Assembly: GCA_022795445.1 (NCBI GenBank)
Contig: JAAWGR010000004.1
Coordinates: 21,180-85,179 of the forward strand
Origin: Oscillibacter sp.
Lineage (GTDB): Bacteria > Bacillota > Clostridia > Oscillospirales > Oscillospiraceae
DNA length: 64,000 bases
Reading direction: 5' to 3'
Below, piece by piece: positions 19,210 to 22,176 of the stretch. The notes under the pieces are model-generated. The model had not been told where the DNA came from and searched no databases. It saw only the letters and a list, made by a program, of their open reading frames with translations. Within the stretch, counting starts at the first letter, position 1. Every line of letters starts with the position of its first letter. The translations under genes were made by a program, and so were the position numbers.

Positions 19210-19935
19210 GTGCGAGTTGACGTTCTAGGCGTTGGCTTTGATAATTTGACCATGATGGAAGCCGTTGAACAGGGCATGGCCCTGCTGAACAGCCCTGGAG
19301 CACACTACGTCGCTACCCCAAACCCGGAAATCGTGGAACTTTGCCGGGAAAATCCGGCGGCCCGGCAGGCCGTCAACGGTGCGGACCTGGTCCTTGCCGA
19401 CGGCATTGGCGTAATCAAAGGGGCCGCTATGTTGGGTACCCCCCTGCGAGACCGTGTTCCTGGTATTGAATTCGCCACTGGACTGATGGCCCGTATGGCA
19501 AAGGATCACCGCTCCCTCTACCTGTTGGGTGCAAAGCCCGGCGTTGCAGAAGCTGCCGCGAAAAACCTCAAGGAACGTTACTTCGGCTTGAAAATCGCCG
19601 GAACCCACGATGGCTACTTTCAGGATGACATCCCCGTTGTCAACGCCATCCGAGCCAGCGGCGCGGATGTAGTGTTTGTATGCCTGGGAGCGCCAAAGCA
19701 GGAACTTTGGATGGCCAAGTACGGCGCAGAAACCGGCGCGCACCTGCTCTGCGGCCTTGGCGGAAGCCTGAACGTATTCGCAGGCGTCGCAGAACGCGCC
19801 CCAAAATTCTGGCGTGACCATGGACTGGAATGGTTCTACCGCTTATGCAAAGAACCCTCCCGTTTGGGCCGTATGATGAAATTGCCGCTGTTTCTCATCC
19901 ATGTGCAGCAGGAGAAAAAGAAAAATGAAGGGTAA
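19210..19935 (+). CDS. WecB/TagA/CpsF family glycosyltransferase
   Basis: TPNPEIVELCRENPAARQAVNGADLVLADGIGVI, VCLGAPKQELWMAK. Confidence 0.93.
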   Translation: MRVDVLGVGFDNLTMMEAVEQGMALLNSPGAHYVATPNPEIVELCRENPAARQAVNGADLVLADGIGVIKGAAMLGTPLRDRVPGIEFATGLMARMAKDHRSLYLLGAKPGVAEAAAKNLKERYFGLKIAGTHDGYFQDDIPVVNAIRASGADVVFVCLGAPKQELWMAKYGAETGAHLLCGLGGSLNVFAGVAERAPKFWRDHGLEWFYRLCKEPSRLGRMMKLPLFLIHVQQEKKKNEG

Positions 19936-20602
19936 ACTCATCGTATTCGAGGGCACTGATGGCTCCGGTAAGGCCACACAGGCCAAACTGCTTTTCCAGC
20001 GCATGTTTGCACGAGGGTTGTCCTGCCGGGAAATTGATTTCCCGCGCTATGGCAACCCCTTTGCCGCCCCCGTGGAACGTTATCTGCGCGGCGCACTTGG
20101 AAACCATCCTGGTGATATAAGCGCCTATGCTTCCTCCACCTTCTTCGCTGTGGACCGCTTTGCGTCCTATAAGGAAGATTGGGGCTCGTTTTATGAGGCG
20201 GGCGGCATTGTCGTTGCAAACCGCTATACCACCTCCAATGCCGTTCATCAGGCCCCGAAACTGCCTGCGTCAGAACGGCTGGAATATTTGGATTGGCTTT
20301 TTGACCTGGAATACCACCGCTTGGGCCTGCCTGCACCGGACCTGGTGCTCTATCTGGACATGCCTTACGAGGTATCCGAAAAAATGCTCCGGCACCGGGA
20401 ACAAGAGACCGGCGCTAACGCCGACATCCATGAACAGGACGGCGGATACCTCCGCCGCTGCCGGGAGGCTGCACGGGATATCGCCCTGCGGTATGGCTGG
20501 AACGTTGTGGACTGCGCCGCCGGGGATGCTCCCCGTCTACCAGACGATATCCACCGTCAGGTGGCCGCATTGGTAAAAAACACCTTGGGGTTGTCCATTT
20601 GA
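19925..20602 (+). CDS. tmk: Thymidylate kinase
   Basis: LIVFEGTDGSGKATQAKLL P-loop, FFAVDRFASYKE; start MKGKLIVFEG. Confidence 0.92.
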   Translation: MKGKLIVFEGTDGSGKATQAKLLFQRMFARGLSCREIDFPRYGNPFAAPVERYLRGALGNHPGDISAYASSTFFAVDRFASYKEDWGSFYEAGGIVVANRYTTSNAVHQAPKLPASERLEYLDWLFDLEYHRLGLPAPDLVLYLDMPYEVSEKMLRHREQETGANADIHEQDGGYLRRCREAARDIALRYGWNVVDCAAGDAPRLPDDIHRQVAALVKNTLGLSI

Positions 20603-20648: not shown

Positions 20649-20879
20649 TTAGCAGCAGCTGTCGTTGTTGCAGCAGCAGTTGTTATTGTTGCAGCCACAG
20701 CCGCAGCCACAACCGCAGTTACAGCCGCAGCCGCAATTGTTTCCACAACCGCAGCCGCAGTTGTTACCGCCGCCACAGCCACAGCTGCCGCCGGTTCCGC
20801 CGCAGCAGCAGCACAGCAGAATGACGATGAGAATGAGCCACATGCAGGAGCCGTCGTTGTTACCATTGTTGAACCACAT
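20649..20879 (-). CDS. Cys/Gly/Asn-rich small protein with N-terminal hydrophobic segment
   Basis: 76 aa MWFNNGNNDGSCMWLILIVILLCCCCGGTGGSCGCGGGNNCGCGCGNNCGCGCNCGCGCGCGCNNNNCCCNNDSCC; RBS AGAGGTG upstream of ATG; 23 Cys, 19 Gly and 15 Asn counted by hand. Confidence 0.75.
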   Translation of the reverse strand: MWFNNGNNDGSCMWLILIVILLCCCCGGTGGSCGCGGGNNCGCGCGNNCGCGCNCGCGCGCGCNNNNCCCNNDSCC

Positions 20880-21003
20880 AAATATGTCACCTCTTGTTTT
20901 GTTGTAACACATTCTATGCACCAGGTTCCTCGCAGGAGCCTGGCCGTTTAAAATCTACCCCGTCCTTTTTTGGGACCCCGCGAGACACAAGGAGGTTTTT
21001 GTC

Positions 21004-22176
21004 ATGGCAGACCACAAAAACGGCGATACCGCCAGCTGGGACAAAGAACAGGTCCGCCGCGCCCAGCCGCCTCAGAAGCGGCCCCGGCGCAAGCGCCGCC
21101 ACCGGTTTGCATTCGCCTTGCTGAAACTTGTACTGCACATCGTGTTCGTGCTGCTGGCATCGGCACTGCTGGCGGAGATTGGATGGCTGCTGTTCTCTGA
21201 TTTCTGCTCCCTCAACAACGGCGGACAAAAGGCAACGGAAAATATTTCCGTTCAGATCACCGCAGACGACACCGTCAGCTCTATCGCAGAGAAACTGGGT
21301 GAGGCAGGGTTGGTCGATTACCCCTGGTTCTTCCGCCTTTACGCTCAGTTCTCCCACGCGGAGGAAAAAATCGGAATCGGCACCTACAACCTCAATAATG
21401 ATATGGATTACCATGCCCTGATTGCCGGTATGCACAGCTCCTCTGGCAGCATGAATGAGGATACTGTACGCGTAACGATCCCCGAGGGCTACACCGTTGC
21501 CCAAACCATTTCTCTGCTGGCAAAAAACGGCGTTAATACGGAAACTGCCTTGCTGGAAGCCGCTAAGACCGCCAATTTTAATTACGACTTTATAGACAAC
21601 GATTCTGAGGAGATCAGCCGGCTGGAAGGCTATCTGTTTCCCGACACCTATGACTTCTATGTCAACGAAAAACCTGCCAGCGCTCTTAACCGCTTGATCT
21701 CCAACTTCAACAGCAAAATCGACGATGAGCTCCTTACCGCTGCAGAGGCCCGAGGATATAACCTCCACAAGATTATTACCATCGCCTCTCTCATTGAAAA
21801 GGAAACCGACGGCTCTGACCAAGACCGCATTGCCTCTGTCATCTACAACCGCCTGGACGGTCCGGGCGACAAAGCCGGAACTTATGGGATGCTCCAGGTC
21901 GACGCCTCCCTCCTCTACGGCCTGCCTGACAACCATGAGGGTCCTATTACCCAGACCGACATGCAGCTGGATTCGCCCTACAATCTTTATAAAAACGCTG
22001 GGCTTCCGCCGACACCCATCGCAAACCCTGGCCTCGCGGCTATCAGCGCCGCCTTGGACCCGGAACACACCGACTACTATTATTACGCCCTCGGCAAGGA
22101 TTCGCGGCACCACTTCTTCACAAACTACAACGACCATATCAACTTCGTCAACAGCAGTGAATATTATGGGAACTAA
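21004..22176 (+). CDS. mltG: Endolytic transglycosylase MltG
   Basis: IIPEGYTVAQ-like LysM subdomain, ASLIEKET, GMLQVDASLLYGL, YNLYKNAGLPPTPIANPGLAAISAAL. Confidence 0.95.
   Translation: MADHKNGDTASWDKEQVRRAQPPQKRPRRKRRHRFAFALLKLVLHIVFVLLASALLAEIGWLLFSDFCSLNNGGQKATENISVQITADDTVSSIAEKLGEAGLVDYPWFFRLYAQFSHAEEKIGIGTYNLNNDMDYHALIAGMHSSSGSMNEDTVRVTIPEGYTVAQTISLLAKNGVNTETALLEAAKTANFNYDFIDNDSEEISRLEGYLFPDTYDFYVNEKPASALNRLISNFNSKIDDELLTAAEARGYNLHKIITIASLIEKETDGSDQDRIASVIYNRLDGPGDKAGTYGMLQVDASLLYGLPDNHEGPITQTDMQLDSPYNLYKNAGLPPTPIANPGLAAISAALDPEHTDYYYYALGKDSRHHFFTNYNDHINFVNSSEYYGN

Follow-up and report, generated by a model that had tools for sequence, protein, structure and literature searches.

Tiny Cysteine-Capped Proteins of Oscillospirales: A Family Probably Linked to Late Sporulation

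Does a short, extremely cysteine-rich open reading frame in the genome of Oscillibacter sp. encode a functional protein, and what role could such a protein play? The frame lies in a 64,000-nucleotide stretch of DNA analysed here as a whole (the window). The first-pass annotation of this DNA considered it to be a sporulation-expressed gene for a membrane-anchored, thiol-rich protein. The gene itself, its promoter, its relatives in the order and the functions that may be proposed for them are described below.

The Cysteine-Rich Reading Frame Is a Conserved Gene

The coding sequence occupies positions 20649..20879 of the minus strand, stop codon included, with the start codon ATG at 20879 and the stop codon TAA at 20649-20651. 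Its 76-aa product, MWFNNGNNDGSCMWLILIVILLCCCCGGTGGSCGCGGGNNCGCGCGNNCGCGCNCGCGCGCGCNNNNCCCNNDSCC, contains 23 Cys, 19 Gly and 15 Asn, the same composition as counted before. Two parts can be distinguished: a hydrophobic core with a Cys cap, CMWLILIVILLCCCC (residues 12-26, codons 20802..20846, minus strand), recognised from alignments, hydropathy and a low-confidence AlphaFold helix, and a Cys/Gly/Asn tail (residues 27-76; 20649..20801 of the minus strand with the stop codon), the length of which varies across 68 members of the family. The gene has a ribosome-binding site of its own, as had been claimed: the Shine-Dalgarno sequence GAGGTGA (20887..20893, minus strand) is located 7 nt upstream of the ATG and is kept in the orthologues. 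An alternative upstream start at 20921 was rejected, as it would precede the -10 element of the promoter and the ribosome-binding site belongs to the ATG at 20879.

Low-complexity repeats leave several frames open, and antisense frames are also open at the 76-aa ORF, as could be the case if the frame had arisen spuriously in a GC-rich repeat. This explanation has practically no chance of being correct and is refuted by comparative data, namely the conserved core, the constraint at second codon positions, synteny, and the invariant promoter and ribosome-binding site. The gene or a relative was found by protein search in 43 of 80 related genomes, mostly of the same genus. Alignment of the Oscillibacter orthologues revealed a near-fixed N-terminal core, M[CW]FNNGNNxCSCLWLIIIVILICCCCG, followed by a hypervariable Cys/Gly/Asn tail ending in CC. 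Over the first 24 codons of 18 orthologues, mismatches occurred at fractions of 0.153 (first codon position), 0.045 (second) and 0.260 (third), indicating selection on the minus-strand reading frame. In the six-frame distribution calculated for the whole window, 50-residue open-frame stretches with 11-20 Cys are far outliers.

The gene is flanked by the convergent tmk gene coding for thymidylate kinase (19925..20602, plus strand; PF02223) and by a divergent mltG/YceG-like gene (21004..22176, plus strand; PF02618), both syntenic, and this tmk-mltG location is common to the gene in seven other genomes examined. The first-pass annotation had proposed a check of homologues and synteny and regarded loss of the repeat frame among close relatives as evidence against its interpretation; orthologues were found in a preserved tmk-mltG region, and dozens of genomes keep the frame with no decay. 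Together with the conserved core, the frame constraint and the ribosome-binding site, this indicates a real gene.

The Promoter Is Conserved and Resembles That of cotJ

A -10 box of the CATAnnnT type, characteristic of mother-cell sigma factors (E/K), had been noticed upstream of the gene. It is present as CATAGAAT (20911..20918, minus strand) and is conserved at promoter distance in all 28 aligned Oscillibacter orthologues with the consensus CATA[AG][AG][AC]T (CATARRMT), in which GCATA and the last T are invariant (28/28). Further upstream is another conserved element, GGCCAGGCTCC (20935..20945, minus strand). The GGYCAGG part of its consensus GGYCAGGCYCC lies 20-21 nt 5' of CATA in 28/28 orthologues and also occurs in front of cotJ in several genomes, while the GGCTCC part is located 16 nt before CATA, that is, at the -35 position.

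In C. difficile, AC is found at -35 in sigma-K promoters and ATA in sigma-E promoters, and the -10 boxes of the two classes are near-identical (PMC3789822). The window gene and its orthologues carry a GGCYCC-like element in the -35 region without the AC of sigma-K promoters, and because this region of the window gene reads GGCTCC rather than AC, either sigma-K or sigma-E may direct its transcription. The spoIVA promoters, read as a sigma-E yardstick, gave no clear rule for telling sigma-E from sigma-K.

The dyad that the first-pass annotation placed in the same region does exist as an inverted repeat (20921..20943), but orthologues keep its left arm, GGCCAGGCTCC, alone. The repeat is judged incidental, and a role as operator or terminator was rejected because it is not conserved. 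The GGYCAGGCYCC element resembles the GerE consensus; assignment as a GerE site was tried and set aside as unproven. According to published reports, Clostridium and C. difficile lack GerE (PMC517825; PMC3789822). Assignment of GGYCAGGC as a SpoIIID-like site is equally unproven.

A promoter profile, applied to 15 genomes by sequence only, gave a strong top match at the orthologue of the window gene in 12 of them and recovered one orthologue missed by the protein search. The strict promoter pattern had the window gene as its sole match in its own genome. The next matches of the profile were found upstream of a CotJA-CotJB fusion gene in three genomes, and further cotJ genes of the genus have the same or a similar promoter arrangement. 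CotJA and CotJB are spore coat proteins unrelated to the 76-aa protein, so that the promoter architecture, seen at the cotJ fusion gene in several Oscillibacter genomes, represents shared regulation alone.

Oscillibacter encodes CotJA and CotJB as a single fusion protein of 160-170 aa matching PF11007 and PF12652 (L057-L059, L123-L133). No cotJ or CotJB match was found in the genome containing the window, the assembly of which is 93% complete. In two genomes with no window orthologue detected (G009 and G003), the best promoter match, GGTCGGGCCTG...GCATAGACT (loci L054 and L055), precedes a gene whose 454-487 aa product has an Arg/Pro/Thr-rich N terminus and one hydrophobic segment.

The Protein Family Is Defined by Its Core

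The same genome carries a second copy of the gene (contig C127), coding for a 64-aa protein, MCNNGFGGGNCCWIIILLIIIWCCCGN...NNNPCC. In other Oscillibacter, nearly all loci of this second group with recognised flanks have the gene behind rex, an SLH-protein gene or both. The redox-sensing repressor gene rex and a gene for an SLH-domain protein are located upstream of the second paralogue in most Oscillibacter loci examined (L079-L090).

With the core profile, the family was detected in 92 of the 299 genomes sampled from the order, representing 55 of 151 genera. About two thirds of the sampled genomes, mostly encoding SpoIVA, had no match at the profile threshold used, and therefore the protein is not a universal part of the spore envelope. 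When 299 genomes drawn across the phylum were searched with the profile, only 4 gave matches; two of these genomes belong to the same taxonomic family, and the two from outside the order gave weak short matches of similar shape.

The 68 collected sequences are 28 to 92 aa long and extend 1 to 68 aa beyond the Cys cap; the shortest, of 28-31 aa, are nearly tailless. The constant part of the family is C-x-W-(I/L/V)8-9-CCC(C), with an optional tail. Since conservation is lowest in the tail, which the 28-31 aa members lack, the core W-(I/L/V)8-9-CCCC, represented in the window by CMWLILIVILLCCCC, is on sequence comparison the family-defining element. The tail, on which the first-pass annotation placed its emphasis, is not what defines the family.

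Searches of Pfam, NCBIfam, PHROGs, PDB and Rfam returned no matching entry for the protein family. For 24 members compared with NCBIfam at E<=1, there was no match besides a chance-level one to TatA/E, and weak Pfam matches (E 0.12-0.36) to small membrane proteins of viruses were dismissed as being at chance level. No description of the family was found in the open-access literature searched. The database name "chorion class high-cysteine" refers to a similar Cys/Gly low complexity; it is a compositional name derived from insect eggshell proteins, with no bacterial function attached, and in the open-access literature searched the phrase was found only in a silkworm paper (PMC11944354). The earlier remark that no function had been assigned to such proteins is consistent with the lack of library matches. 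The sequence comparisons thus delineate a family that previously had neither a name nor a library entry and spans many genera of the order.

Hydropathy analysis revealed a hydrophobic run of about 10 residues in the 76-aa protein, or 14-15 if the Cys cap is counted. In the AlphaFold model (mean pLDDT 46), residues 11-25 form a helix, but with low confidence, so the predicted membrane insertion rests on hydrophobicity. The 76-aa protein belongs to a family of tiny, probable membrane proteins.

Two functions suggested by the tails and by gene organization may be considered here. The pooled tails contain 28% Cys, a few of them also include His and Asp, as in HDHDRDCDR and CGCEHHCGCG, and the second group is located near the redox regulator gene rex; such features could belong to a metallothionein-like thiol buffer or metal store that, in a strict anaerobe, binds metal or removes oxidants at the surface of the spore. 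This function appears unlikely in view of the number and spacing of Cys residues, which vary freely among orthologues, unlike those of a fixed metal site, and of the existence of tail-less members and the sporulation class of the promoter. The conserved N terminus and hypervariable Cys-rich C terminus also fit the outline of a ribosomally made, modified peptide precursor, in which a conserved leader precedes a Cys-rich core peptide. Such a precursor is highly improbable: no maturation enzyme or exporter was seen within about 5 kb in either group, where the neighbours are tmk, mltG, rex, the SLH-protein gene, and other housekeeping genes, and the conserved part is a hydrophobic anchor rather than a charged leader.

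Promoters of the Wider Family Point to Sporulation

Genes of the second group have AC-N16-CATANNATR upstream in 11 of 11 cases examined. Among members outside both groups, the pattern AC-N15-17-CATANN[ACT]T occurs within 120 bp upstream of 18 of 23 genes, with 0.29 of 23 expected by chance (first-order Markov shuffles); these 23 sequences are related and not independent, yet they come from many genera and different loci. SpoIVA is encoded in 279 of the 299 genomes of the order, and the family is present in 91 of the 279 SpoIVA-positive genomes and in 1 of the 20 SpoIVA-negative ones (Fisher p=0.010, ignoring phylogeny), which represents a modest association.

Expression during sporulation had earlier been proposed from a single CATAGAAT box. 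It is now favoured by the conservation of the promoter, its sharing with cotJ, the sigma-K-type promoters of the family and the association with SpoIVA. The assignment of the window gene to sporulation, although predicted from sequence, is strongly supported.

The genome containing the window (G000) encodes SpoIVA and a SigE-like factor, and SigK is encoded in separated pieces. The latter are located on different contigs, C134:18161-18337 (L154) and C29:47191-47544 (L151), and correspond to the N-terminal (model positions 9-67) and C-terminal (109-226) parts of the protein, the model stretch 68-108 being missing. Each piece adjoins a long serine-recombinase-like frame. In two other genomes, the sigK halves lie on one contig each, about 36 kb apart in G017 (C28) and about 23 kb apart in G024 (C108). 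This organization looks like a skin-type element interrupting sigK.

A Possible Role in the Spore Envelope

Among known proteins, a close parallel in design is YjcZ of Bacillus (tiny_TM_bacill, TIGR01732), which is likewise very small, has one hydrophobic segment and is encoded by a sporulation gene; in B. subtilis, the sigma-K regulon is reported to include yjcZ (PMC517825). The members of the new family, 28-92 aa in length, similarly have one hydrophobic run. The Cys cap and Cys-rich tail set this family apart from YjcZ, with no detectable homology, as evidenced by the lack of NCBIfam matches for 24 members; a search of 59 genomes of the order with the TIGR01732 model also gave nothing above the cut-off. 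By analogy, the 76-aa protein may work like tiny sigma-K proteins such as YjcZ, without being their detectable homologue.

The clostridial exosporium proteins CdeC and CsxA are likewise very Cys-rich and linked to sporulation (PMC7677010). CdeC is large, contains 37 Cys and has repeats of its own, NPC and CCRQGKGK, and its ordered self-assembly is redox-sensitive and thiol-dependent (PMC7677010). The sections of that source considered here describe no hydrophobic anchor-plus-cap plan for these proteins, and comparison through the family libraries gave no similarity to them. As described there, CdeC and CsxA may serve as an earlier example of spore layers in clostridia being assembled through thiols.

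Taken as a whole, the data are best explained if the gene encodes a spore-envelope microprotein expressed in the mother cell late in sporulation, the core being inserted into a membrane and the thiols serving to assemble or cross-link the coat; we consider this explanation probable. RNA polymerase with sigma-K (or sigma-E) would produce the protein in the mother cell after engulfment, and the hydrophobic core would insert into the outer forespore membrane or the mother-cell membrane. The CCCC cap thiols, together with those of the tail where present, would associate with each other and with Cys-rich coat or exosporium proteins and would later be oxidised to disulfides. Such contacts could join the membrane to the protein shell or nucleate its assembly, with the core acting as the functional unit and the tail as a species-tuned, thiol-rich extension. 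Late synthesis in the mother cell, insertion into the membrane, thiol-based assembly with the coat or exosporium and location in the spore are thus what we infer for this protein.

A role in assembly rather than in structure is a less likely, though credible, alternative. The protein could be a tiny membrane-embedded helper that positions coat proteins or alters the activity of a membrane enzyme in the mother cell, its Cys cluster binding a partner or metal and its tail being largely dispensable. The core indeed stays constant while the tail dwindles to almost nothing in members of 28-31 aa, and tiny sigma-K genes such as yjcZ are known in B. subtilis (PMC517825). On the other hand, most members keep a Cys-rich tail and those of Oscillibacter keep its CC ending, which suggests that the tail is used.

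For the order as a whole, the explanation as a spore-envelope protein can be extended, more tentatively, to a family of Cys-capped membrane microproteins dedicated to linking membrane and coat late in sporulation, in which species-tuned thiol tails would set the cross-linking of the envelope and the oxygen tolerance of the spore. Many gut anaerobes travel between hosts as spores, and family libraries miss most of the envelope genes of this order. A family of tiny proteins that about one in three of the genomes sampled encodes may offer a genetically simple target for studying how anaerobes seal their spores and survive oxygen, and the conserved promoter of the window gene can readily be used to probe the mother-cell regulon of the order.
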